A DNA stretch of 64,000 nucleotides, taken from assembly GCA_021786265.1 (NCBI GenBank), contig JAJYNP010000051.1:1-64000 (forward strand), given 5' to 3'. Position numbers and translations under genes: made by a program. Origin of the DNA: Chloroflexota bacterium (GTDB lineage: Bacteria; Chloroflexota; Limnocylindria; Limnocylindrales; CSP1-4). The notes beneath the pieces were generated by a model, which saw nothing but the letters and a program-made list of their open reading frames with translations, did not search any database and had not been told where the DNA came from. Positions 5,990 through 16,990 of this stretch are shown here, piece after piece (positions within the stretch are counted from its first letter, which is position 1; each line of letters opens with the position of its first letter).

Positions 5990-7257
5990 CGCGCGGTCCT
6001 CCCACGCCTGACGACAGCGACCGCCACCAGCCACAGCCCCACCACGAGCACGGCCCAGGGCACGAGATACAGCCACGTTGCCGTGTCCCTCGCGTGCTCC
6101 ATGGTCTGCACGCCGTCCACGCCCGCCACCGCGATGACGGCACCGAGCACGAGGCGCGGCCACGAGACGGTGGACGGGAAGGTGGTGACCCACTCGCGGA
6201 CGCCACCCATGCTGCCCACGCCCAGCGTGTCGTCCCGCAGGCGGGCCAGGCGCCGCTGCACCGCCGGGGCCCGAACGATCAGGTAGTACGACACGTACGC
6301 GTAGGCCACGCCGCCGATGCAGTCGATCAGCCAGTGGTCGCCGGTGTACATGACCGAGAAGGCAACCAGCAGGGTGTAGGCGAACCCGATCCAGCCGATC
6401 TTGCCGAATGCCCGCCGCAGCACCAGGAACGACAGGAACGGGTAGCCCACGTGCAGCGACGGCCACGCCGCGAACCCGTTCGGGTTCACGTCGTAGAAGG
6501 TGTACGTGTAGATGTAGTCGGCCTTGAACCCGAAGAAGTTGGCAAGGGTGTCGAAGGCGCCGGGCTTGAGGTAGGAGATGACCGCGTGCCCGTCCGGCCC
6601 GTTGAGCGCGCCCACCTGCGCCGCGTACCACGGCGGGGCCGTGGGGATCAGCACGAAGGTCACGAAGCCCCACAGGCTCAGCAGGATCAGGGCAGCCACG
6701 AAGTCGTAGTAGTGCGCGCGCCGCCACACCCAGAGGATGAAGCCGGTCACGAGCGGCAGCGCGAAGTGGAGCATGTAGACGACCGTTGCCAGCTCCGCCA
6801 CGATGTCGACCCCGGTCGCCGGGTGGAACGCGTCCTGCAGGAGCTGCGACGGGATCCGCCCGAAGGCCACCAGCCGCTCGGCGGTGACCATGTCGGTGAT
6901 GTGGACCGGGAGGCCGACGTTGTCGGCCAGCCCTCGCATGAGCTCGTAGGCCAGGAACAGCGCGACGAACGGCAGCCAGTCCCGCAGGAAAAGCCGGCCC
7001 CGGCCCAGGAGGACGGCACCCAGCCCGAAGGCGACCGCCATCACGTCCGGCGTGATCTCGATGCCACGGAGGAACATCAGCAGCACGACGAGCGCGCTGT
7101 AGATCACCACGAGCGTCATCAGGAGCCGCTCGTTGCGCCTGCCGAGCGTGTGCACGGGCGCCTGGCCGGTCGGCGCTGCGTCGTGGGCGGCCGTGCCGGT
7201 CTCGGCGGTCGCGCCCAGCGCGTCGGCGCGTGCCGCGCCGGGTGTGTCGCCTGGCAT
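5986..7257 (-). CDS. PAP2-superfamily integral membrane protein
   Basis: This protein of about 423 residues has a hydrophilic N-terminal tail of about 40 residues and about ten membrane helices. It carries PAP2 phosphatase/transferase motifs: AAWPSLHVGYPFLSF (the SxxH motif) and YTGDHWLIDCIGG (the GxHxxxD motif). LIPTAPPWYAAQ is characteristic of the inositolphosphotransferase/Aur1-like branch, which often swaps phosphoalcohol head groups on lipids. The likely role is in membrane lipid remodelling at the outer face. It heads an operon with MTA phosphorylase, sulfurtransferase and the PQQ-type lipoprotein. Adjacent GTG (7260) and ATG (7257) codons both could serve as start and no convincing ribosome site separates them; ATG is listed. 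Confidence 0.85.
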   Translation of the reverse strand: MPGDTPGAARADALGATAETGTAAHDAAPTGQAPVHTLGRRNERLLMTLVVIYSALVVLLMFLRGIEITPDVMAVAFGLGAVLLGRGRLFLRDWLPFVALFLAYELMRGLADNVGLPVHITDMVTAERLVAFGRIPSQLLQDAFHPATGVDIVAELATVVYMLHFALPLVTGFILWVWRRAHYYDFVAALILLSLWGFVTFVLIPTAPPWYAAQVGALNGPDGHAVISYLKPGAFDTLANFFGFKADYIYTYTFYDVNPNGFAAWPSLHVGYPFLSFLVLRRAFGKIGWIGFAYTLLVAFSVMYTGDHWLIDCIGGVAYAYVSYYLIVRAPAVQRRLARLRDDTLGVGSMGGVREWVTTFPSTVSWPRLVLGAVIAVAGVDGVQTMEHARDTATWLYLVPWAVLVVGLWLVAVAVVRRGRTAR

Positions 7258-7360
7258 CACGATTGAGGAGCGTCCGTCATCTGGACCCCGAGCTGCGGAC
7301 TGGCGGAAGGGGAGACAGGCAGGCTGTCCGGCGGATTATGGCAAGGATCGCGCCGAGCCG

Positions 7361-8053
7361 TCATTGCGGGGACGATCGGCGGGCCCGCCGGCTGCGCCCG
7401 ACGGCGCGCCTGCCGGCACCCGGGAGCGGCCCAACGGCGCCGGCAAGGGCGCGGTCGCTGCCGGAGTCCTGGGACTCGAAGACGCGCGCCTCGAAGGCCT
7501 CGAGCATCCCGGCGCACCTGTCGAGCCACACGCGCGCCTCCTGCTGGTTGGGAGCGCCGAACCAGTCGCGCTCCCTCACCCGCTCGAACCAGGCGCAGAC
7601 CTTCTCGTAGTCGCTGCGGATCTCCTCCGCCTCTTCGTACGTGAAGTTCTGGCGGAACGTCTCGAACTCGATCTCCTTGGTGAAGTTCACCTCGCAGTCC
7701 TCGACGATCTCGGCATAGTGCCGCGAGGTCTGCTCGATGAACTGCGAGACGAGCTTCTGCTCTTCCTCGGGCGGGGGCCTCCGGAGCGGCAGCAGATGGT
7801 ACTCGCCGGCGGAGTCCTCGATCCGCCGGAGGATCGGTCGGAGATCGCGCCAGACCCGGGGGTTCTGCGGGAAGACGCACACCGATTGCTGCAGGTAGAC
7901 CGCACCCACCTTCTTCAGCATCCGCCACACGTAGACACGGTTCGCGGAGGGCTTCGCCGGCACCCGGTAGACCAGCACCATGAACCGCGGACGCGGTGAC
8001 CCCGCCGTCGAACTCCCGTCCCCCGCTGCCTGCCGAACCATCTGCCCGATCAT
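7361..8053 (-). CDS. ChrB N-terminal-domain-like protein (possible regulator)
   Basis: The protein is about 230 residues from the ATG at 8053, but other in-frame ATGs at 8041 and 7981 are possible. The core from MVLVYRVPAKPSANRVYVWR to VYLQQSVCVFP strongly resembles the N-terminal domain of ChrB, the chromate-responsive repressor found beside ChrA transporters. The middle is acidic and helical, with FTKEIEFETFRQNFTYEEAEE. The C-terminal ChrB domain appears to be missing and a basic tail replaces it. No helix-turn-helix is obvious to me. The gene is divergent from a COG4280-type membrane protein, the usual regulator/transporter layout, and a palindrome lies in the shared upstream region. Confidence 0.75.
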   Translation of the reverse strand: MIGQMVRQAAGDGSSTAGSPRPRFMVLVYRVPAKPSANRVYVWRMLKKVGAVYLQQSVCVFPQNPRVWRDLRPILRRIEDSAGEYHLLPLRRPPPEEEQKLVSQFIEQTSRHYAEIVEDCEVNFTKEIEFETFRQNFTYEEAEEIRSDYEKVCAWFERVRERDWFGAPNQQEARVWLDRCAGMLEAFEARVFESQDSGSDRALAGAVGPLPGAGRRAVGRSRRARRSSPQ

Positions 8054-8105
8054 ACGGCCTGCCCACCGGCCGGCCACTGGCGGTCCACACGGCGCCGCCG
8101 GCCGT

Positions 8106-8134
8106 TTGACCGCGCGAGGCCGAGCGACTACGAT
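8106..8134 (+). promoter_or_regulatory. sigma70-type promoter for the COG4280-type gene
   Basis: TTGACC (8106-8111) and TACGAT (8129-8134) are separated by exactly 17 bases. Transcription would begin near 8141, just before a palindrome and the ribosome site of the downstream gene. Confidence 0.6.
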
Positions 8135-8144
8135 CACGAATGTT

Positions 8145-8166
8145 TGATGTAGCAGGTATTACATCA
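8145..8166 (+). promoter_or_regulatory. operator-like palindrome at +5 to +26
   Basis: Perfect 7-base arms, TGATGTA (8145-8151) and TACATCA (8160-8166), flank an 8-base spacer. The pattern ATGTA-N8-TACAT resembles operators reported for PadR-like repressors, though I cannot test that link. The right arm touches the AGGAGG ribosome site at 8166-8171. Either a bound repressor or an RNA hairpin there could block expression. Confidence 0.6.
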
Positions 8167-8175
8167 GGAGGGCTG

Positions 8176-8940
8176 ATGCAGACGCTGGTGGCGGCGGCAC
8201 CCGCGTTCGTCGCGTCGGTGGTGGAGTTCGTCGAGGCGCTGACGATCGTGCTCGCCGTCGGCATGACTCGCCAGTGGCGATCCACCCTCGTGGGCGTGGT
8301 CGCGGCCATGGTGGCGCTGACGGTGATCGTGGGCGTGTTCGGCACGGCGATCGTGGTGTTCATCCCGATCGCGATTCTCCGCCTGGTCGTGGGCGCATTC
8401 CTGCTCGTGTTCGGGCTCCAATGGCTGTGCAAGGCGATCCTGCGTGCGACGGGAGCCAGGGCCAAGCACGACGAGGCGGCGATCTTCGAGCGCGAGGTCG
8501 CCCAGCTGCGGGCAGAGGCACCGGTCCCCGCGGAGGGCATGGACTGGATCAGCTTCACCGTGGCGTTCAAGGGCGTGCTCCTCGAGGGACTCGAGGTGGC
8601 CTTCATCGTGGTCACCTTCGGCGCCTCGGCAGGTCAGCTCGGCCCGGCCGCGCTGGGTGCCGCGATCGCGGGCGCGCTGGTCCTGGCGGTCGGCGCCGTG
8701 TTGCACCGGCCCCTCGCCCGCGTACCGGAGAACGGGCTGAAGTACGGGGTCGGGTTGATGCTCGTCACGTTCGGCACGTTCTGGGCCGGCGAGGGTGTCG
8801 GGATCGCCTGGCCCGGCAGCGACGCCGTGCTGCTGGTGCTCCTCGCGGCGTATCTGGCGGCGAGCCTGGTGGGTGTCTGGGCCGTGCGATCGCTGCTGCC
8901 GACGCGCCTCGTGGCCGCACCGGCGACGGTCCGGGAGTAG
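8176..8940 (+). CDS. COG4280-type predicted membrane transporter
   Basis: This 254-residue protein has about seven membrane helices. Two acidic repeats lie in helices: VEFVEALTIVLAVG near residue 16 and LLEGLEVAFIVVTFG near residue 140. They resemble each other, suggesting an internal duplication, and recall the REGLE motif of FTR1 iron permeases and the acidic motifs of GDT1/cation exchangers. This matches my recollection of COG4280, a family of unknown substrate. A cytoplasmic loop at about 90-130 is charged. The ATG at 8176, four bases after AGGAGG, is preferred to an in-frame ATG at 8140 that lies upstream of the operator. The gene is followed four bases later by a small membrane protein gene. 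Confidence 0.75.
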   Translation: MQTLVAAAPAFVASVVEFVEALTIVLAVGMTRQWRSTLVGVVAAMVALTVIVGVFGTAIVVFIPIAILRLVVGAFLLVFGLQWLCKAILRATGARAKHDEAAIFEREVAQLRAEAPVPAEGMDWISFTVAFKGVLLEGLEVAFIVVTFGASAGQLGPAALGAAIAGALVLAVGAVLHRPLARVPENGLKYGVGLMLVTFGTFWAGEGVGIAWPGSDAVLLVLLAAYLAASLVGVWAVRSLLPTRLVAAPATVRE

Positions 8941-8944
8941 GGCC

Positions 8945-9157
8945 GTGCGCTACCTGCGCTCTTTCGGCGCCTTCTGGTACGACTTCCTCGTCGGCGACCG
9001 CCCCGAGCTGTTCCTGGGTCCCATCGTGGCACTCGTCCTGGCGTGGGTGCTGGTTGACGCGGGCCTGCCCGGGGGAGGCACCGGAATCTTCCTGTTCGCA
9101 GCGGTGGTCGCCGTCGGCGCCCTCAGCCTGTACCTGACCGCGCGCCCGAAGGCGTAG
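8945..9157 (+). CDS. small two-helix membrane protein
   Basis: This 70-residue protein (GTG start) begins VRYLRSFGAFWYDFLVGDRPEL and has two hydrophobic helices, LFLGPIVALVLAWVLVDAGL and GIFLFAAVVAVGALSLYLTA. It starts four bases after the stop of the COG4280-type gene, so the two are almost certainly co-transcribed. It may be a small subunit or stabiliser of that transporter. No family is recognised. Confidence 0.7.
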   Translation: MRYLRSFGAFWYDFLVGDRPELFLGPIVALVLAWVLVDAGLPGGGTGIFLFAAVVAVGALSLYLTARPKA

Positions 9158-9227
9158 CCGAGGCCGGCACCGCCCGCCGGGTCAAGCCCGGGTCCCGGCT
9201 CATGGCGACCCCGAAGGTCGTGCCCCG

Positions 9228-10100
9228 TCAGCCGAGCGCCAGGGCGTCGTCCCCCGGGCCCGAGACGGGCCGCTCCGCAGCGGAGGCGTGCCACAGCGGC
9301 AGGCTGAACGAGATCGACGTGCCGCCGGTGGCGGGGCCGAGCCAGATCTCACCCCCGTGGGCTTCGATGAGGCGCCGGCAGACATAGAGGCCGATGCCGG
9401 AACCCGGGACTCCGGCGGTGCGTGCGCGGGCGCCCCGGTAGAAGGCCTCGAAGACGTGGGGGCGATCCCCGGGATCCACGCCGGGACCGTCGTCCTCCAC
9501 GCTCACGATCACGCTGTCGCGACCCTGGCGGGCGCGGATGGTCACCCCCGTCGAACCGGCGCCATGCCTCCGGGCATTCGTCACGAGGTTCCTGACCACG
9601 TGGAGAACCCACGCGGCGTCCACCTCGACGAGCGGCAGGCCGGGTGCGATGTCGCACGCGATTTCACCGGTCTCGCCCGCCGTCAGCTCGCGGACTGCAT
9701 GCTCGATCAGCCAGGAGACGGCGACCGGCTCGCGCTGCAGGGCCGGACGCTCGTCGTCCGCGAGGTTCACGAGCTCGTCGGCGCATTCGGTCAGCGTGGT
9801 GGCGGCTGAGATGATCCGCTCGAGGTACTGGCGGCGGGTCGGTGCATCCAGCGCCAGGTGCTGAAGGCTCTGGCTGTAGCCGCTGACGAGGGCGAGCGTG
9901 GAGCGGAGCTCGTGCGCGGCCGCGGCGGCGAGGATCGAGCGCAGCGTCTTCGCGGACACCCCGCGGTCCACGGCCGGCCAGGGTGCGGAGTCCCGGCTCC
10001 CGGCCGCCTGAGCCGCGGTCGGTGCCCCGGCGGGACCGGGCGATTCACCCAATGGCACCACGGGAAAGTCAGGCGGTGGCTGGTCGATCCTGAGGACCAT
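9228..10100 (-). CDS. soluble orphan histidine kinase
   Basis: This 290-residue protein has no membrane segment and no recognisable sensor domain; its first 70 residues are Pro/Ala-rich. The HisKA helix contains AAAAHELRSTLALVSGYSQSL with the phospho-acceptor His. The HATPase region has the N box VVRNLVTNARRHGAGS, the G1 box VEDDGPGVDPGDR, the F box HVFEAFYRG and the G2 box GSGIGLYVCRRLIEAHGG. It should autophosphorylate and pass phosphate to a response regulator that is not encoded nearby. ATG 10100 is chosen over 10163 because GGAGGAGG lies nine bases upstream. Its mRNA leader carries a promoter and a terminator hairpin (separate entries), so expression is probably set by attenuation. Confidence 0.88.
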   Translation of the reverse strand: MVLRIDQPPPDFPVVPLGESPGPAGAPTAAQAAGSRDSAPWPAVDRGVSAKTLRSILAAAAAHELRSTLALVSGYSQSLQHLALDAPTRRQYLERIISAATTLTECADELVNLADDERPALQREPVAVSWLIEHAVRELTAGETGEIACDIAPGLPLVEVDAAWVLHVVRNLVTNARRHGAGSTGVTIRARQGRDSVIVSVEDDGPGVDPGDRPHVFEAFYRGARARTAGVPGSGIGLYVCRRLIEAHGGEIWLGPATGGTSISFSLPLWHASAAERPVSGPGDDALALG

Positions 10101-10147
10101 GGAGGGGAGCCTCCTCCGGCTGCGACCCGGCTCGGCGGAAAACAAAA

Positions 10148-10174
10148 CCCGCCCCGAACACACGCCGGGGCGGG
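10148..10174 (-). terminator. intrinsic terminator inside the kinase leader (attenuator)
   Basis: A perfect 9-bp GC stem (CCCGCCCCG with CGGGGCGGG) has a 9-base loop. On the minus strand it is followed directly by TTTTGTTTT (10147-10139). It lies between a good promoter (10242-10214) and the kinase ribosome site, so transcripts for the kinase must read through it. Confidence 0.8.
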
Positions 10175-10196
10175 ACCTGTCCGAGTCATGGTCCCG
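10171..10196 (-). promoter_or_regulatory. alternative antiterminator stem
   Basis: In the minus-strand RNA, CGGGACC (10196-10190) can pair with GGTCCCG (10177-10171) over a 12-base loop. The 3' arm uses four bases (10171-10174) of the terminator's 5' arm, so the two structures exclude each other. This is the usual logic of protein- or ligand-controlled antitermination. Confidence 0.55.
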
Positions 10197-10213
10197 GAGC
10201 TTGGGCTGACCGC

Positions 10214-10242
10214 TTTCTAGCCGCCGCGAACACGATTGTCAA
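10214..10242 (-). promoter_or_regulatory. sigma70-type promoter of the histidine kinase
   Basis: On the minus strand TTGACA (10242-10237) and TAGAAA (10219-10214) are spaced by 17 bases. The start site would be near 10207, giving a leader of about 105 bases before the ATG at 10100. Confidence 0.7.
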
Positions 10243-10289
10243 GAGCGTACCGGCCCGTTGTCGGAGCGTACCGGCCAGGTGTACCGGCC
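10243..10289. repeat. three direct repeats abutting the -35 box (iteron-like)
   Basis: GAGCGTACCGGCC occurs at 10243-10255 and again at 10264-10276, exactly 21 bases (two helical turns) apart. A third variant ending GTGTACCGGCC lies at 10277-10289. The first copy touches the -35 hexamer of the kinase promoter, the expected place for activator or repressor sites. Confidence 0.65.
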
Positions 10290-10311
10290 CGGCGCACGAA
10301 CCGACCCGGTG

Positions 10312-10917
10312 TCAGCCTCCTCGCTCGACGCTCCCCCGTCCACCGCCCGGCGACGCGGGGAGTCGGGGTGAGCCTGCGGACTCGGCCATTTCCAGCGCAC
10401 ACGCTGGCCGGACCACGACGCTGTCGGCACACTCCAGCAGGGTCCACGCCCGGTCCGCGGTCTCGATGAACCCATATGCCACCAGGGGCCGCGGCAGTCG
10501 TTCCACCTCGGCGACCGGAAGATGGTCCAGCACGGGTCCGGGCGACAGGACCGTGCCGATCCCCGGTTCCCGCGGATGACCCTCGAGCGACCGGGCGAGG
10601 CCCGTCGAATCGAACGCGAAGACATGGAGCAGTGCGATCCGACCGAGCGCCGCCACGCGACTCGCCACCGCGGGGCGGCGCGTGATCACCACGTCCACCC
10701 CCAGGTCCACGGCCAGAAACCGGGCCGCGGCCGCGTCGGCGTTGAGCCCCTCGACGCTGTCGAGATCCACCGCCAGGGTCGTCGTCGCCGTGCCCGCGGC
10801 CACGATCAGCGTCATCAGGTCGAGATCGCGCAGGAGGACGCCGGCCTCGAGACCCTGGGGCGGCACGACCGCCTCGCGCCCGTTCGTGGCGACGAAGACC
10901 GGCGTCAGGAGGCGCAC
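10312..10917 (-). CDS. second, divergent GlpP-family antiterminator-like protein
   Basis: This 201-residue GTG-start protein begins seven bases after the upstream GlpP-like gene, with AGGTGAG before it. It keeps the GlpP layout of a short barrel: a strand at AGVLLRDLDLMTLIVA, LAVDLDSVEGLNADAAAARFLAVDLGVDVVITRRPAVASRVA, FAFDSTGL and the late glycine turn VAYGFIETADRAWTLLECADSVVV. The classic GlpP residues are more eroded than in its neighbour, and a 30-residue Ser/Gly/Arg tail is added. GlpP of Bacillus binds glycerol-3-phosphate and prevents termination in the glpD leader. Here the ligand and target are unknown, but an attenuator lies just downstream. A paralogue with changed specificity is plausible. 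Confidence 0.7.
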   Translation of the reverse strand: MRLLTPVFVATNGREAVVPPQGLEAGVLLRDLDLMTLIVAAGTATTTLAVDLDSVEGLNADAAAARFLAVDLGVDVVITRRPAVASRVAALGRIALLHVFAFDSTGLARSLEGHPREPGIGTVLSPGPVLDHLPVAEVERLPRPLVAYGFIETADRAWTLLECADSVVVRPACALEMAESAGSPRLPASPGGGRGSVERGG

Positions 10918-10924
10918 GGCTCGC

Positions 10925-11515
10925 TCACCTCAGGTCCACGGTCCACAGGTTCTCGGCGCTGGTGGTCACCCCGATGGCACCAGCGGTGAGTACGGCGCGT
11001 GCCTGCGCCTCGGTCCGGATGAACCCTCCGGCGAGCAGTGGGACGCCGAGGGAGGGCAGCAGCGCCCTGACCTCGGGCAGGATGACGCCCGGCAGCACCT
11101 CCACGATGTCCGCCCCCGACTTGGACGTGGCGCCGAGCGCGGCGTCGAGAAGACCGCGGCGTACCAGCAGCAGCCGGTGGATCGCGACCATGCCCTCGTG
11201 GCGGATGGCCGGCATGAGCTGGCCGTGCGAGCTGATCACCGCGTCGGCCCCGGCGTGGCCGAGCCACCGAACACCCGCCCGATCGGGACGAACGCCGTCG
11301 ATGAGATCCAGGTGAACGGCCACGAGCTTTCCGGCGGCGTGCACCCGCGCCACCAGCGGCCGCAGTTCGAGCCCGTCGGCGCGCAGCACGAACACGATGC
11401 CGACCGGGCTGGAGAGCGCGGCGTCCAGCCGGTCGTGATCGACGAGCGCCGCGCAGCACGGGGCCGCGAGCAGACGGGCGTGGAAGGCACGGACGTTCGG
11501 ATCGGAACGGATCAT
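10925..11515 (-). CDS. glpP: GlpP-family transcription antiterminator
   Basis: The protein has about 196 residues from MIRSDPNVRAFHARLLAAP; an ATG 12 bases earlier is also possible. It matches GlpP: PVGIVFVLRADGLELRPLVARVHAAGKLVAVHLDLIDGV, AGADAVISSHGQLMPAIRHEG, GATSKSGADIVEVLPGVILPEV and PLLAGGFIRTEAQARAVL. The length equals the Bacillus subtilis protein (about 192). GlpP senses glycerol-3-phosphate and binds leader RNA to stop intrinsic termination of glycerol genes. No glpF, glpK or glpD is in the window. The nearest leader with a terminator is that of the histidine kinase downstream. It sits in an operon with a second, more divergent copy. Confidence 0.82.
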   Translation of the reverse strand: MIRSDPNVRAFHARLLAAPCCAALVDHDRLDAALSSPVGIVFVLRADGLELRPLVARVHAAGKLVAVHLDLIDGVRPDRAGVRWLGHAGADAVISSHGQLMPAIRHEGMVAIHRLLLVRRGLLDAALGATSKSGADIVEVLPGVILPEVRALLPSLGVPLLAGGFIRTEAQARAVLTAGAIGVTTSAENLWTVDLR

Positions 11516-11644
11516 CGGCACCGGCATGCGGAGCACCGGGCGTCGCACGGCCGTACGGGACCGCGCCACGCCCCGCCGTCGGCGCATCGATCGCGGGACT
11601 CGGTGCTCGGGTCCGCCACCGAGGCCGCGGACGCCGGCTCGAGA

Positions 11645-12103
11645 TCAGGCACCCGCCGCCCCGAACATGGGGGCGAGGATCCGGTCCTCCTGCTCCAGGT
11701 GCGCACGCAGCGCGGCCGCCAGGTCGCGGAGATGTGCCCGGACGCTGCGGAGCTGCCGCCGTGTCGGCGCATGCCGCAGCAGGGTCCAGTCTGCCTCCAC
11801 CAGCAGGATCCGGCCACGGACCTGCTCCAGCTGCAGACGCAGGCGGCGGCTGGCCCGCGGCGTGCCGGCCACGCGGTCGATCACCGGGTGGCAGATCGCC
11901 TCCTCCCAGTCGAGGTACGGGAGGACGTGCTGCTCGATCGCGTCGAGCAGGCCACGCGCCGTTCCGCCGCCGAGCGCGACGACGACGTCGCCCGCCCCGT
12001 CCGCGGCCTGCAGGGTGCGAGCGACGACCTGGGCGATCTCATGCTGCTCCTGGCGCCACGTGCGCCGCACGGCGGACGCGGCACGACCCTCGGCCAGCGA
12101 CAT
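11645..12103 (-). CDS. haemerythrin-like HHE domain protein
   Basis: This 152-residue all-helical protein carries candidate metal ligands in WRQEQHEIAQVV, IEQHVLPYLDWEEAICHPVID and LRAHLEQEDRILAPMF, the pattern of HHE cation-binding/haemerythrin-like domains that hold a di-iron centre. Such proteins sense or store oxygen, nitric oxide or iron in the cytoplasm. The ATG at 12103 is set by GGAGGCAGGTGAG just upstream; the open frame extends further 5' but without coding character. The gene lies about 130 bases upstream of the GlpP pair on the same strand and may be co-transcribed. Confidence 0.78.
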   Translation of the reverse strand: MSLAEGRAASAVRRTWRQEQHEIAQVVARTLQAADGAGDVVVALGGGTARGLLDAIEQHVLPYLDWEEAICHPVIDRVAGTPRASRRLRLQLEQVRGRILLVEADWTLLRHAPTRRQLRSVRAHLRDLAAALRAHLEQEDRILAPMFGAAGA

Positions 12104-12230
12104 CTCACCTGCCTCCCGGCGATTCCAGCGTGCGTTGCCAGCGCGAATACTGGCGCATCGCGCGGCGCGCCGCCAGGGGCTTCGGTCACGGAACGCCGGC
12201 GGGAACCGTCTGAAACGCGCAGCTGCCGGC

Positions 12231-13658
12231 TCACCCGGGGGCACCGGGCTCCAGGCCCTCCTCGGCGAACATGCCCGCCCCGTCGAAGCGGATCGGGTGG
12301 GGCGGCTCGAGCAGCTCGCAGCCCGCCGCGAGCGCCTCGGGCAGTGCCGGCGCGCTGACATACAGCAGCTCCAGGTGCTTGGTGTCGCGGACCCGCACGA
12401 TCCGGGCCTCCTCCGGGACCACCCGCAGGCAGCAGGCCAGGGCCACCGCCAGCGCCTCGCGATCGGTGTCCACGGTCAGCGCCACCCGGGCACCCTCGGG
12501 GGTCTTGGCGGTGATGCAGTTCACGTAGGTCCTGGGCGCGTCCATCCGCTCGACCGCGCGGCGGAGCACCACGTCGGCCATGCCGATCCCGACCGCGTTG
12601 CCCTCGGTCTCCTCGGTCAGGTCGCGCACCACGATGCGCTGGATCGCCGGGGGGATGCCGGTGGACCCGGTGTAGTAGCGGCCGACCACGTTGGAGTCCA
12701 TGCCCAGGCCGCTGATGTCCTTGCCGATGCGATCGAGCACCAGCACGTCGATGGCCGCCAGGGGCAGGCGCGCCATGGCGTCGCGGGCCAGGCGCAACAG
12801 CTCGGGCTCGCGCGCGAGGATCCGCGCGGCGGGCACCGCCTCCAGGTGCACCAGGCGGGCGTGGCCGTTCTCCACCAGGGCCAGGCCGAAGGGGATCGGG
12901 GCATGTGCCAGGGTATACGTCGCGACCGCCGGGATCAGCTCGTGGAACGTGGCGAACCCCTGGCGGTGGAACGCGTCCGCGCCCTTCTGCTTGCCCAGGC
13001 CGATCGCGATCATCTTGGCCAAGCCGCTCTCGATCGCGCCGGTGAAGTCAGTGTGGGGCTTGACCCGGTTGATCGGCACGATCAGGTCGGCCTCCTCGAA
13101 GGCATGCCGGTCCAGGAACACCGGCACCCCCGGGCGCACCTCGCCGAGCTCGACCGTGGCCATGGAGGAGCGGATCTCGCAGTCCACCGTATCGGGCGTG
13201 ATGCCGTAGCTGGCGAGCACCTCGCGCTGGCCCTCTGCGGTGGCGCCGCCGTGGCTGCCCATGGCGGGCACGATGAAGACCTCGGCGCCGGCCTCGCGGA
13301 CCCACCCGACCGCCGCCGCCACCACCGCGTCGATGCGGTCGATGCCGCGGCTCCCCACGGCCAGGCAGACCCGCGCGCCGGGCACGATGGACGCGGCCAC
13401 CGGCGCCAGGGCGGCCCGCACGGCGGCGCGCACGTCCCCGACCTCGGCGGGGTCCAGGCGCTGGCGCACCAGGGCCCACGCGGGCAGGGTGCCGTCCAGG
13501 AACTCGGCGAACGGGGACTCCTCGTCGCCGGGGGTCGTGGCCCCCGTTTCGCCCAGGGTCGGCGGATCGCGCAGCGCCTCGTCGGGCACGTGCGGGCGCC
13601 GGTCCTCCGCGGGCGGCACACCGGTTCTCCCCTCGCCCGGGGGACCGGCCGGCCTCAT
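12231..13658 (-). CDS. LarA-like (DUF2088) racemase/epimerase-family protein
   Basis: This 475-residue protein is related to nickel-pincer lactate racemase. Features include VCLAVGSRGIDRIDAVV, the MGSHGGATAEGQ loop that replaces the LarA GTHR-type His motif, INRVKPHTDFTGAIESGLAKM and VLDRIGKDISGLGMDSNVVGR. The first 50 residues are Pro/Gly-rich and probably flexible. LarA homologues include epimerases of hydroxy- and sugar acids. Its place 25 bases after a KDG kinase gene and near a UxuB-like SDR argues for a C2 epimerase on a hexonate such as gluconate or mannonate. No larB, larC or larE genes for the pincer cofactor are seen here. GTG 13661 and ATG 13658 both sit behind GGAGAG; ATG is listed. 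Confidence 0.78.
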   Translation of the reverse strand: MRPAGPPGEGRTGVPPAEDRRPHVPDEALRDPPTLGETGATTPGDEESPFAEFLDGTLPAWALVRQRLDPAEVGDVRAAVRAALAPVAASIVPGARVCLAVGSRGIDRIDAVVAAAVGWVREAGAEVFIVPAMGSHGGATAEGQREVLASYGITPDTVDCEIRSSMATVELGEVRPGVPVFLDRHAFEEADLIVPINRVKPHTDFTGAIESGLAKMIAIGLGKQKGADAFHRQGFATFHELIPAVATYTLAHAPIPFGLALVENGHARLVHLEAVPAARILAREPELLRLARDAMARLPLAAIDVLVLDRIGKDISGLGMDSNVVGRYYTGSTGIPPAIQRIVVRDLTEETEGNAVGIGMADVVLRRAVERMDAPRTYVNCITAKTPEGARVALTVDTDREALAVALACCLRVVPEEARIVRVRDTKHLELLYVSAPALPEALAAGCELLEPPHPIRFDGAGMFAEEGLEPGAPG

Positions 13659-13683
13659 CACCCCACTCTCCGCGGCCGGGCCG

Positions 13684-14766
13684 TCATCGCTGGATGCGCG
13701 CCGAGCCGCCCTGCGCGAGCGCCCGCACCTGCGCGAGGGTGGCCATGGTGGTGTCGCCGGGGAAGGTGGTGAGGAGGGCGCCGTGGGCCCAGCCGAGGCG
13801 CAGCGCCGCCTCGGGCGCCTCCCCCGCCAGGAGCCCGTAGAAGAGGCCCGCGGCGAAGCCGTCGCCGCCCCCCACCCGGTCGTACACGTCGAGCTCCAGG
13901 GTGGGGGCGAGGTACGAGCGCCCGTTCGCCCAGGCCGCCGCGCTCCAGCTGTGACGGTTGGCCGAGTGCACCTCGCGCAGCGTGGTGGCCACCACCTTGA
14001 CGCGCGGGAAGCGGGCCACCACCTGCTCCATCATGGCCAGGAACGCGGAGGGATCGAGGCCCGAGGCGGCGGCCACCGCGGGCCCCGGGATACCCAGGCC
14101 CGCCTGCAGGTCCTCCTCGTTGCCCACCAGCACGTCGACCTGCTCGACCAGGCGGGCGAGCGCCGCCTGTGCCCGCGCCTGGCCTCCCTGGGGGGCCCAC
14201 AGCTTGGCCCGGTAGTTCAGATCGAAGCTGACCACCGCGCCCGCGGCGTGGGCGGCCGCCATGCCCTCGGCGATCAGCGCCGCCGTGGAGGGCGAGAGTG
14301 CGGCGAAGATGCCCCCGCTGTGGAACCAGCGCACCCCAGCGGCGACGATCGCGGGCCAGTCGAAGTCGCCGGGGCCCAGGCGCGCGGCCGCCTCGTCGGC
14401 GCGGTCGTAGAAGACGAGCGGGGCGCGCACCCCGAAGCCCCGGTCGCTGTACACGGTGGCGATGTTGGGCCCGCGCACCCCGTCGTGCTCGAAGCGGCGG
14501 TAGAAGGGGGCGACCCCCATGGCGCGGATCCGCGCATCCACGAGCTCGCCGATCGGATAGTCCACCATGGCGGTGGCGATCCCCGTGTGCAACCCGAAGC
14601 AGTCGGCGAGGTTCGCGGCGACGTTGTACTCGCCGCCCGAGACGTGGATAGTGGCCTCCCGGGCCCTGCGGAAGGGCACAATGCCGGGATCGAGGCGGAT
14701 CACCACGCCACCCAGCGAGAGGAAGTCGAGGGCCCCGGCTTCCGGGATGGCGAGTGGGTCGGCCAT
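13684..14766 (-). CDS. kdgK: PfkB-family sugar kinase, 2-keto-3-deoxygluconate kinase type
   Basis: This 360-residue ribokinase-fold enzyme contains the N-terminal substrate motif HVSGGEYNVAANLADCFG, the nucleotide strand DVLVGNEEDLQAGLG and the catalytic region YDRVGGGDGFAAGLFYGLL. Family members usually have GAGD; here it is GGGD, with the base Asp kept. It ends with TTFPGDTTMATLAQV, a tail typical of KDG kinases of this type. The expected reaction is ATP-dependent phosphorylation of 2-keto-3-deoxygluconate to KDPG. The ATG at 14766 has GGAGGA five bases upstream. It lies between the SDR (17 bases upstream) and LarA-like genes in one operon. A near-identical piece of its 3' end recurs at 56.3 kb. 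Confidence 0.87.
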   Translation of the reverse strand: MADPLAIPEAGALDFLSLGGVVIRLDPGIVPFRRAREATIHVSGGEYNVAANLADCFGLHTGIATAMVDYPIGELVDARIRAMGVAPFYRRFEHDGVRGPNIATVYSDRGFGVRAPLVFYDRADEAAARLGPGDFDWPAIVAAGVRWFHSGGIFAALSPSTAALIAEGMAAAHAAGAVVSFDLNYRAKLWAPQGGQARAQAALARLVEQVDVLVGNEEDLQAGLGIPGPAVAAASGLDPSAFLAMMEQVVARFPRVKVVATTLREVHSANRHSWSAAAWANGRSYLAPTLELDVYDRVGGGDGFAAGLFYGLLAGEAPEAALRLGWAHGALLTTFPGDTTMATLAQVRALAQGGSARIQR

Positions 14767-14783
14767 GGGGGTCCTCCGCTGCG

Positions 14784-15575
14784 TCAGATGGTCATGGCGG
14801 CGAACCCGCCGTCGACCGGGATGAGGGCGCCGGTCACGAACCCGGACGCCCGCTCCGAGGCGAGCCAGACGGCCGTGCCGACCAGCTCGTCCGGCTCGCC
14901 CAGGCGCCCCGCGGGCGTGTGCCCGAGGATCGCGCGGACGCGCTCCTCGGAGAGCAGCCGGCGGTTCTGCTCGGCGGGGAAGAACCCCGGGACGATGGCG
15001 TTGACCCGGATGCGATGGGGCGCCAGCTCGCGCGCGAGATAGCGGGTCAGGATGTTGACCCCCGCCTTCGAGACAGAGTAGGTCAGCACCCGCGAGAGGG
15101 GGATCTCCGAGCTGGTCGAGGAGATGTTGATGATGCTGCCGCCCCGGCCGCGCTCCACCATGGCGTGCCCGAAGACCTGGCAGGCCAGGAACGCCGAGGT
15201 CAGGTTCGTGTCGAGGATGGCGTGCCACTCCGCGAGGCCGATCTCGAAGAAGGGGGTGGCGCTGTTGACGCCCGCCGCGTTGACCAGGATGTCGACCGGC
15301 CCGAGCGCTCCCTCGACCTGCCGGCGCGCGTCCTCGAGCGCGCTTCGATCGCCCGCGTCGGCCAGGACGGCCGCGGCCGCCACCCCTTCGGCCCGCAGCG
15401 CCGCGACCCGCGCGTCGGCCCGCTCGCGCGAGCGGCCCAGCACCGCCACCGCCGCCCCGGCCGCGCCGAACCCATGGCACAGCGCCCCGCCCAGCACGCC
15501 GGTGCCGCCGATCACGGCCGCCACGTGGCCGGACAGGTCGAACAGCGCCGTGCCGCCCGGCGTCCCATCGGTCAT
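14784..15575 (-). CDS. SDR oxidoreductase, fructuronate/mannonate reductase-like
   Basis: This 263-residue classical short-chain dehydrogenase has the Rossmann motif VIGGTGVLGGALCHGFG, the NAAGVNS turn, the catalytic Ser in INISSTSSEIP and the YSVSK motif (TYSVSKAGVNIL). The end is GFVTGALIPVDGGFAAM. GGTGVLG instead of TGxxxGIG, together with SEIPLSRVLTYSVSK, recalls the YjmF/UxuB-type NAD-dependent mannonate oxidoreductases. That fits reduction of fructuronate ahead of KDG formation, although no UxuA dehydratase is in view. It is the first gene of the operon; a LacI-type operator covers its promoter 190 bases upstream. Confidence 0.82.
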   Translation of the reverse strand: MTDGTPGGTALFDLSGHVAAVIGGTGVLGGALCHGFGAAGAAVAVLGRSRERADARVAALRAEGVAAAAVLADAGDRSALEDARRQVEGALGPVDILVNAAGVNSATPFFEIGLAEWHAILDTNLTSAFLACQVFGHAMVERGRGGSIINISSTSSEIPLSRVLTYSVSKAGVNILTRYLARELAPHRIRVNAIVPGFFPAEQNRRLLSEERVRAILGHTPAGRLGEPDELVGTAVWLASERASGFVTGALIPVDGGFAAMTI

Positions 15576-15760
15576 CGCGCCTCCCTCCCCGTCATGCCCG
15601 TGGCGGTGGCGGGGACGGGCACCTCGACCGGCATCGCTTCACACGGGGATGACCATGTTCCACCTGGATGACTCCATGGATGGCGACGCGGCAAGCGCGG
15701 CATGTTCGCAGCGCCTCCCTTGCTCAGCTGGCCGTCCGTGGCCAGAGCCCTGATTGGAGA

Positions 15761-15784
15761 GTTCACTGAAACGCTACACTGAAC
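15761..15784. promoter_or_regulatory. LacI-type operator (site 1)
   Basis: This is a 24-base imperfect palindrome centred on a CpG at 15772/15773, with core TGAAACGCTACA and outer arms GTTCA/TGAAC. Nine of twelve positions per half match. It overlaps the -10 box of the SDR promoter. The core recurs at 27.3 and 27.56 kb. Confidence 0.6.
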
Positions 15785-15799
15785 GGAACACTCCGTCAA
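15771..15799 (-). promoter_or_regulatory. promoter of the SDR-kdgK-LarA operon
   Basis: On the minus strand TTGACG (15799-15794) and TAGCGT (15776-15771) are spaced by 17 bases. The -10 lies inside operator site 1, so a bound LacI-type protein would block it. Confidence 0.5.
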
Positions 15800-15847
15800 C
15801 GCGGCAACGCCAAGGCCCTGCGATGTCAGCTCAAGATAACCTTATCA

Positions 15848-15875
15848 TTGACGTCGCTTGGCGTTCTGGTATCGT
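15848..15875 (+). promoter_or_regulatory. probable promoter of the LacI-family gene
   Basis: TTGACG (15848-15853) and TATCGT (15870-15875) are 16 bases apart. The -35 shares the 11-mer TTGACGTCGCT with the promoter of the M20/ABC/nag operon. The -10 again has the TANCGY form, within 6-base inverted arms GTATCG/CGATAC (15869-15902), suggesting weak autoregulation. Confidence 0.4.
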
Positions 15876-15919
15876 TGCGAAATCGCTTTACTGGACCGAT
15901 ACACTCACGGTGGCTGGGA

Positions 15920-16990
15920 TTGGAACAGAAGCGCCGACGCGCAACGATCGAGCAAGTCGCCAAGCTGGCCGGCGTGTCGATCACGACAGTCTCCAACGTT
16001 CTCAACAACCGCACGGACGCCATGCGGCCTGCAACGCGGGTTCGTGTGCTGGAGGCTGCGCGTGCACTTGGCTACCACCCGAGCCAGGTAGCCCGCAGCC
16101 TGGCCATACGGCAGACGGCGACGATCGGCCTCGTCATCGCGGAGATCGCCACGCCGCTGTTCTTCAGCGCTGTGAGCGTCATCGAGCGGGTGGCGCGGCA
16201 GTCCAACTACAACGTCCTGCTCTGCCATGCGTCCACGGCCGACGAGGAACAGAACGCGCTCGATCTCCTGCAGGAGAAAGAAGTCGAAGGCGTCATCCTC
16301 CTGTCGACGTCGGACTACCGCGATGACAGCCTGCTCGACAGGTTGGCCAGCTCCATTCCGGTGGTGAGCATCAACCGTTCGGGCAGCGGAGGAGCCTTCG
16401 ACCGGATCACCTGGGACAACACGCAAGGGATCGCCTCCGCGGTCCGGCATCTCCATCGCCTGGGCCACCGACGGATCGCCTTCCTGCGTGGTCCCTCCGA
16501 CCGGAAGGGAACCGATGAACGTTTCCAGGGCTACCGGTTCGGCCTGGCTGAATGCGGGCTCGCGTTCATCGACGAGTATGTGGCTGCAGCCGACTACACG
16601 GCAGGTCCGGCCGATTGGCAGGCGGCCACGGAGCAGCTGCTGTCCGTGCCGACCCCACCGACGGCGGTCATCGCCTCGGACGACAGCGTGGCTGCCGTTG
16701 TGATGCGGACGGTGCAGAGCCGGGGCCTTCGTGTCCCGGGAGATGTGGCCGTCGTGGGGGTGGATGATCAGCCCTTTGCCCCGCTCCTGATGCCTGCACT
16801 CACGACGGTGCGCCTGCCGATCCAGGAGGCAGGTCAGCAGGCGATCACGCTCCTGTTCGAGCGGCTCCGTGACAGCTCCCGGGGGCCCGCTCGCGTGATG
16901 CTTCCGACAACGCTGGTCGTGCGCGAGTCCTGCGGGGCGGCACAGATGCGCACCGAGTCGGAGATCGCATGGCACGTCGGATCGGCATGA
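15920..16990 (+). CDS. LacI-family transcriptional regulator
   Basis: This 356-residue repressor-type regulator has an N-terminal HTH TIEQVAKLAGVSITTVSNVLNN and a hinge region GYHPSQVARSLAIRQT. A periplasmic-binding-like sensor domain starts at ATIGLVIAEIATPLFFSAV and includes AVIASDDSVAAVVM and VAVVGVDDQPFAPLLMPALTTV. The start is taken as TTG 15920 (read LEQKRRRATIEQVA), which puts the HTH at the usual distance from the N terminus and has GGTGG upstream. An in-frame TTG at 15848 would collide with the promoter. It lies between two divergent-facing catabolic operons that share operator-like boxes, so its effector is probably an amino-sugar or sugar-acid intermediate. Confidence 0.9.
   Translation: MEQKRRRATIEQVAKLAGVSITTVSNVLNNRTDAMRPATRVRVLEAARALGYHPSQVARSLAIRQTATIGLVIAEIATPLFFSAVSVIERVARQSNYNVLLCHASTADEEQNALDLLQEKEVEGVILLSTSDYRDDSLLDRLASSIPVVSINRSGSGGAFDRITWDNTQGIASAVRHLHRLGHRRIAFLRGPSDRKGTDERFQGYRFGLAECGLAFIDEYVAAADYTAGPADWQAATEQLLSVPTPPTAVIASDDSVAAVVMRTVQSRGLRVPGDVAVVGVDDQPFAPLLMPALTTVRLPIQEAGQQAITLLFERLRDSSRGPARVMLPTTLVVRESCGAAQMRTESEIAWHVGSA

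Follow-up and report, generated by a model that had tools for sequence, protein, structure and literature searches.

In Bacillus subtilis, GlpP together with glycerol-3-phosphate relieves the terminators of glpD, glpFK and glpT, according to two reports (PMC9604022, PMC7430163), and the GlpP glycerol regulon was said in 2013, in a Thermotoga study (PMC3750489), to be unstudied by comparative genomics. The Chloroflexota leaders described here, starting from one in a window of 64,000 nucleotides (the whole stretch of DNA that was analysed), resemble the B. subtilis leaders in having a promoter, a conditional terminator in the 5' leader, a GlpP-family protein and glycerol genes downstream, but differ in a separate conserved hairpin that overlaps the terminator, two tandem GlpP genes, and a histidine kinase as a target. 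In the BglG/LicT/SacY family, which is unrelated to GlpP, the antiterminator hairpin overlaps the terminator; here too a protein would hold an antiterminator overlapping the terminator, but the RNA target is short, a hairpin whose loop is conserved. EutW is paired with EutV in the ANTAR example, where the regulator acts on RNA, whereas here the order is reversed and an RNA switch would make the kinase. LicT is described as a protein that holds an antiterminator hairpin (PMC7430163), and ANTAR antiterminators as a junction of two-component signalling with antitermination (PMC3369931, PMC3369936). No report of a kinase under GlpP was found in the open-access literature, as represented mostly by titles and the beginnings of abstracts.

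The leader in the window lies entirely on the minus strand, and its parts agree to the base with the initial annotation: the promoter is as stated (-35 element TTGACA, 10242-10237, kept in the near-group leaders; 17-base spacer; -10 element TAGAAA, 10219-10214, with 16-18 base spacing in near relatives), the intrinsic terminator occupies 10174-10148 (10 pairs, 9 of them GC, loop of 7; -20.8 kcal/mol when folded alone) with a T-rich tail at 10147-10139, and an alternative 7-bp stem (10196-10171, CGGGACC/GGTCCCG) pairs 10196-10190 with 10177-10171, bases 10174-10171 being common to both stems. This second hairpin, which possesses a conserved loop, is the presumed GlpP site. A ribosome-binding site (GGAGGAG, 10117-10111) comes only past the terminator and is followed by the kinase ATG at 10100; the interval between the T-run and this ATG is no more than 38 bases, too short for an additional promoter. 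As read from the sequence, the order is a promoter (by consensus only), a terminator, a ribosome site and then the gene. Repeated GCCGGTAC(A/G)C units are found between the glpP2 stop and the promoter (10240-10300).

Folding of growing transcripts predicts that the antiterminator forms first (-12.7 kcal/mol for the transcript to base 10171) and is displaced by the completed terminator arm. With four shared bases, this folding order, and conservation in 27 distinct leaders, the antiterminator hairpin is predicted to exclude the terminator. In the proposed mechanism, RNA polymerase would start at the TTGACA/TAGAAA promoter and by default, on folding energies only, the terminator would displace the earlier hairpin and the transcript would end before the kinase gene; GlpP (GlpP1, perhaps with GlpP2) carrying glycerol-3-phosphate would hold the GGAC/GUCC hairpin, and the held hairpin would block the terminator, with the result that the kinase would be made.

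Taken as a single sequence, the leader is not beyond chance: the region 6000-16000 contains two terminator-like sites compared to 1.9 +/- 1.7 in shuffles, the fold z-scores of the leader (-1.08 and -1.89) are near chance, and a sigma-70 promoter scan that demands T at the last position of the -10 element misses the leader promoter. It is conservation in relatives that makes the leader significant.

Both genes upstream belong to the GlpP family, as the initial annotation had stated. The first, glpP1 (10925-11587, minus strand; PF04309, 1.6e-39), probably starts at 11527 as its relatives do, the closest of which (P0001) aligns without the first 20 residues; its family profile matches the solved GlpP proteins 3kts (2.3e-36) and 1vkf (9.3e-24). 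The second, glpP2 (10312-10917, minus strand; PF04309, 1.7e-12), encodes a divergent paralog that stays above the PF04309 cut-off although it has other residues in place of GG and TTS, two stretches found without variation in 20 aligned GlpP1 rows; GlpP2 may be unable to bind the ligand, if these stretches have the ligand role that we infer for them. The glpP2 genes of P0122 and P0124 extend further, encoding YALDK, and in the L001 locus the extension runs across the -35 element. Named homologs are mainly from Chloroflexota, several of them from Candidatus Limnocylindrales, and the viral contigs searched contained no relative.

The tandem glpP1-glpP2 arrangement was found in all 12 relatives fetched (eight loci from genome contigs and four further genomes from a search of the class, in which 10 of 177 genomes encode GlpP2). 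In 13 of 13 glpP1-glpP2 loci, the window included, glpP2 is followed by one and the same leader, made up of a TTGACA promoter, a GGAC/GUCC hairpin and a terminator that overlaps it; the overlapping stems are kept, which bears out the attenuator proposed in the initial annotation. In the relatives it precedes the kinase gene in five (L001-L004 and L029; six of 13 with the window), the glycerol facilitator gene glpF in five (L021, L022, L025, L027, L028), and, in two (L023, L024), a hydrolase gene whose product matches AXE1 weakly. All 14 near leaders have TTGACA and, at a spacing of 16-18 bases, a -10-like word, by a script that required TTGA and took the best -10 partner; among the distant leaders described below, TTGACA lies within 60 bases upstream in seven of 17 and is not found there in the other 10.

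Covariation is evident in the terminator, where four of eight pairs have changes on both sides, 92.7% of cells are paired (12 rows) and the score is equaled by none of 500 shuffles; the antiterminator stem is kept in the 12 near rows through identical letters, without a double change and with five of 72 cells unpaired. Over 30 leaders (27 distinct), 93.2% of its pair cells are paired; among the 27, which were gathered by a model containing the motif or by neighborhood and so favor the motif, three core pairs are invariant, the outermost pair fails in nine, and covariation is confined to one pair (GC in 12, GU in seven, AU in eight). Loss of the alternative stem where the gene order is kept, which would have spoken against attenuation, is not what the relatives reveal: the inner five pairs are present in five of five kinase-bearing relatives, the outer pair failing in L029, and each of the seven non-kinase relatives has at most one stem mismatch, which falls at the A-U position in L024 and in L028 and at the outer pair in L022.

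The hairpin lies 137 bases past the glpP2 stop on the same strand, and a lone terminator is unremarkable by shuffles, as would be expected if it were merely the terminator of a glpP1-glpP2 operon, with the kinase expressed by read-through or not at all and no switch. Such a plain terminator, however, would not account for the promoter upstream of the hairpin in all 14 near leaders, for the conservation of the overlapping hairpin and its loop, or for the presence of the same leader without a preceding glpP (before dhaK in G083) or without an intact glpP (before glpD in G481, G491 and G496). Because a promoter precedes the hairpin and the same leader occurs elsewhere, this explanation was rejected as highly improbable.

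A covariance model (R1) was built from 12 leaders and searched over the 177 genomes; at E <= 0.05 it has 15 matches, spread over 14 genomes, and 11 of the matches lie in the 10 GlpP genomes. One, before dhaK of G083 (a gene absent from training), had an E value of 4e-11. The second leader of this genome (L021:12162-12225) precedes the gene cluster dhaK-dhaL-glpP1-glpP2-glpF-glpK, in which dhaL is named from its resemblance. The other four matches, outside the GlpP genomes, scored 23-33 bits. Three of these weak matches (G174, G170, G179) were rejected as GlpP leaders, as they resemble terminators before aminoacyl-tRNA synthetase genes with what we take to be the T-box motif; the match in G166 has no link to a T-box or an aminoacyl-tRNA synthetase. 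A phylum search centered on G008 returned mostly the same Chloroflexota genomes. Among 29 distant Chloroflexota GlpP loci, each the best GlpP match of its genome and together covering 29 of the 36 GlpP-positive genomes out of 400, R1 matches 22 (17 at E <= 0.03 and five at 0.36-0.89), and the 19 distant matches listed have the same GGAC-loop-GUCC hairpin and terminator.

A second model (R2), built from 20 leaders and searched over the 400 genomes, has matches at E <= 0.01 in 40 genomes. Fifty of its 71 matches were examined, after sites repeated on two loci and four of six near-identical genomes were dropped; the genes behind them are glpP (14), glpF (13), kinase (6), glpD (5), hydrolase (3), glpK (2) and dhaK (1), with none of these behind the remaining six. 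Hence 44 of the 50 leaders (24 of 30 excluding R2 training sites) stand before the kinase or hydrolase gene, glpP or one of the glycerol genes; the six that do not score at most 28.7 bits, and three accepted sites score equally low (27.5-28.5 bits). The association with GlpP that the initial annotation had drawn from adjacency consequently exceeds adjacency, with the same leader before glpF, glpK, glpD, glpP and dhaK in other Chloroflexota. The hydrolase under a GlpP leader, an alpha/beta-hydrolase found in three genomes (L023:5824-7764; L024:4575-6455; L156 of G412), is possibly a glycerolipid esterase, and a further alpha/beta-hydrolase gene lies downstream of glpP in L150 (G216).

The switch might instead be read by something other than GlpP, either by glycerol-3-phosphate directly as a riboswitch or by another RNA-binding protein, and both the conserved loop and the strong glpD leaders in three related genomes with no intact GlpP by PF04309 (G481, G491, G496) would suit such a reader. 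Fragments of the GlpP C-terminus were observed within a few kb of the glpD leader in two of these genomes (G491:C1:5180072-5180176; G496:C9:725359-725466), which look as if GlpP had been lost while the leader stayed. Against a different reader, 32 of the 40 R2-positive genomes encode GlpP (31 of the 36 GlpP-positive genomes, plus G008), and five of the eight that do not encode it intact have weak matches (at most 28.7 bits) with no glycerol gene found behind them; the five GlpP-positive genomes outside the R2 list (G003, G308, G322, G341, G432) include one (G003) known to carry the leader, and the two genome draws may differ. The conserved part is also short for a ligand-binding RNA, and B. 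subtilis GlpP acts in just such a way (PMC9604022, PMC7430163). A reader other than GlpP is accordingly considered very unlikely, and the leader is interpreted with considerable confidence as a switch for transcription antitermination of the GlpP type, the binding of GlpP and the response to glycerol-3-phosphate being presumed.

The RNA itself is unlike that of Bacillaceae, judging from one Cytobacillus glpP-glpF-glpK-glpD locus (L233), in which R2 finds nothing at E 5. Close to the terminator's left arm, the glpF (L233:6534-6702) and glpD (L233:9041-9215) leaders of this locus both contain a word resembling AGAGANNANGAGA, which is perhaps the Bacillaceae GlpP site. Because the Cytobacillus leaders look different, the claim is that the Chloroflexota leader works like B. 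subtilis GlpP antitermination, and not that the RNA is the same. Eight plasmid GlpP loci (from Enterococcus, Streptomyces, Vescimonas, Klebsiella, Paenibacillus, Peptoclostridium and Cytobacillus) contain no convincing leader, the best match (16.6 bits, E 0.03, L118) being about 3.7 kb from glpP, and a letter-pattern search of two of the plasmid loci found none. At the gathering score, Rfam has no match in the window and only a tRNA in 10 related loci, by which a known Rfam leader was rejected as the identity of the element. It is taken to be a GlpP-type leader RNA absent from Rfam, with a kinase, in a group of uncultured Chloroflexota, as its unexpected target.

The kinase gene (9228-10100, minus strand) encodes 290 amino acids with Pfam HisKA and HATPase_c domains, and evidently lacks a sensor: HisKA begins at residue 54 of 290 with nothing before it by Pfam, whereas in the three full-length relatives scanned HisKA begins at about residue 300-350, preceded by a PAS match. 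It is an orphan, as had been claimed, with no glycerol-type regulator beside it and only a 30% match in the window, 39 kb away. Genes for a ChrB-like protein (7361-8137, minus strand) and an iron-permease-like protein (OFeT_1; 8140-8940, plus strand) lie next to it.

In the search of the class, five kinase orthologs rank first and full-length kinases next (35-48% identity). In 15 of 15 full-length loci (L187-L200, L231), a DhaL-like protein and a regulator are encoded alongside the kinase, and glpF or dhaK is also on the available stretch in 12 of the 15, the other three (L189, L191, L195) being short contigs or a contig end. The four regulators called by Pfam all consist of a receiver and Trans_reg_C, and the kinase of OTHER_L214 adjoins glpF-dhaK. 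No description of such a system (DhaL-like protein, PAS-type kinase and OmpR-type regulator near glycerol/dihydroxyacetone genes) was found in the literature.

A first kinase tree left the sister group of the sensorless kinases unresolved. In a 43-row tree (midpoint root) that omits OTHER_L210, L219 and the long-branched L217, L202, L206 and L212 and adds nine proteins, the 12 sensorless rows (the window and 11 others) form one clade (100/97), which is nested in a 30-row clade (100/100) with the 15 full-length glycerol-type kinases and three metagenome proteins of unseen genomic context. By this phylogeny, the sensorless kinase is a cousin of the two-component kinase of the glycerol operon.

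The window kinase keeps the phospho-accepting His, the Glu and the N, G1 and G2 boxes, but the H-E/D-x-x-T/N motif followed by Pro is absent from it: HELRST replaces the HELRTP or HDLRTP of 15 of 15 full-length relatives. Sixteen sensorless proteins of 288-303 amino acids are predicted in public data (P0241-P0256, of which P0241 is 99% identical to the window kinase), and in all 16 the Pro is replaced by Thr, with Ser at the T/N position in 12, Thr in two and Ala in two; Ala is also found in L029. Two of them (P0255, P0256) have Arg for the phospho-accepting His, and altered nucleotide-binding (G) boxes. Judged by these residues, phosphotransfer is not conserved throughout the sensorless family. 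The contig of P0256 and that of the GlpP2 protein P0142 are given with identical size (7217).

In one study (PMC3510030), sensorless CrdS, a kinase without its input domain, is described as constitutively active, and the T/N residue of the HisKA motif H-E/D-x-x-T/N as required for the phosphatase reaction and dispensable for the kinase reaction, no serine at that position being seen among the variants. CrdS is a laboratory construct, whereas the kinase family here is natural, with Ser at the T/N position and Thr for the next Pro. Given the role reported for the T/N residue and the HELRST of the window, it is plausible that the kinase is controlled through its dose and is only a weak phosphatase; and because the kinase has no sensor domain, the switch would set the kinase dose and stand in for the missing sensor.

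The Arg at the phospho-acceptor in two proteins and the substitutions at the T/N and Pro positions are also what would be seen if the protein did not act by phosphotransfer and instead partnered or titrated the full-length kinase or its regulator, or if it were drifting towards loss. This is considered unlikely, given that the window protein keeps its His, its Glu and the N, G1 and G2 boxes and that 16 sensorless proteins of 288-303 amino acids are predicted.

The favored, though speculative, output of the kinase is the system of DhaL-like protein, full-length kinase and OmpR-type regulator found beside glpF-dhaK-dhaL-glpK in related genomes. In three of the five kinase-bearing genomes (G003, G004, G005), a glpF-dhaK-dhaL-glpK operon (dhaL by resemblance) is on another contig, and neither R1 nor R2 finds a leader at these glpF operons (R2: L079-L084). 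In G002, glpF is on a short contig, likewise without a leader, and in G001 and G002, assemblies of 2.1-2.2 Mb that are possibly incomplete, glpK has only weak matches. G002, G003 and G005 each encode the glycerol-type regulator (E about 1e-118 to 1e-125), whereas the search did not find it in G001 or in G004, another assembly in that size range and possibly incomplete; it is absent by score (best 1e-62 to 4e-67) from G006, G053, G058, G083 and G168, the genomes of the class that have the leader before glpF or the hydrolase. An element, TTTCGACGATGTCTTGAGATT, is conserved upstream of glpF in G002-G005 (L079:1504, L080:3512, L081:8351, L083:1109) and is a candidate regulator site; it also occurs in L198, and with more differences in L193.

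In the sensorless kinases the interface helix reads SGYSQSL, unlike the (S/T)AYVDTL of the glycerol-operon two-component kinases of the same genomes (L187-L189), and is closer to that of the kinases of other genomes (L190-L195); the G005 regulator in turn differs in the matching helix from the regulators of other genomes. Such differences are as expected of insulated paralogs, and these genomes encode many other regulators, so that the switch could be as described and the kinase nevertheless signal to a regulator unrelated to glycerol. On the other side, the closest relatives by the tree are kinases of glycerol operons, and the next-best regulators of these genomes match the glycerol type far less well. 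We give an unrelated regulator a substantial chance, somewhat short of even. The glycerol two-component system as the target is put forward as a speculative suggestion that may well prove wrong.

The fullest reading that can be offered, more tentative still, is that the RNA switch has replaced the sensor of the kinase, GlpP with glycerol-3-phosphate setting no more than the level of a kinase that has no sensor and probably little phosphatase activity, and that would feed a DhaL-kinase-regulator two-component system driving the relocated glpF-dhaK-dhaL-glpK operon. A two-component relay would thereby have taken the place of direct GlpP control over glpF, and some lineages would have gone on to turn the protein into a pseudokinase acting by binding.

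For GlpP, the comparison provides a leader RNA family that can be recognized by sequence across Chloroflexota, with predicted targets that include the kinase, dhaK and the hydrolase. For two-component signalling, it would indicate how an RNA switch that senses a metabolite may come to be wired into such a system, and it identifies a kinase family in which one may trace, stepwise, how the sensor was lost, how the phosphatase motif changed and how the phospho-accepting His disappeared.
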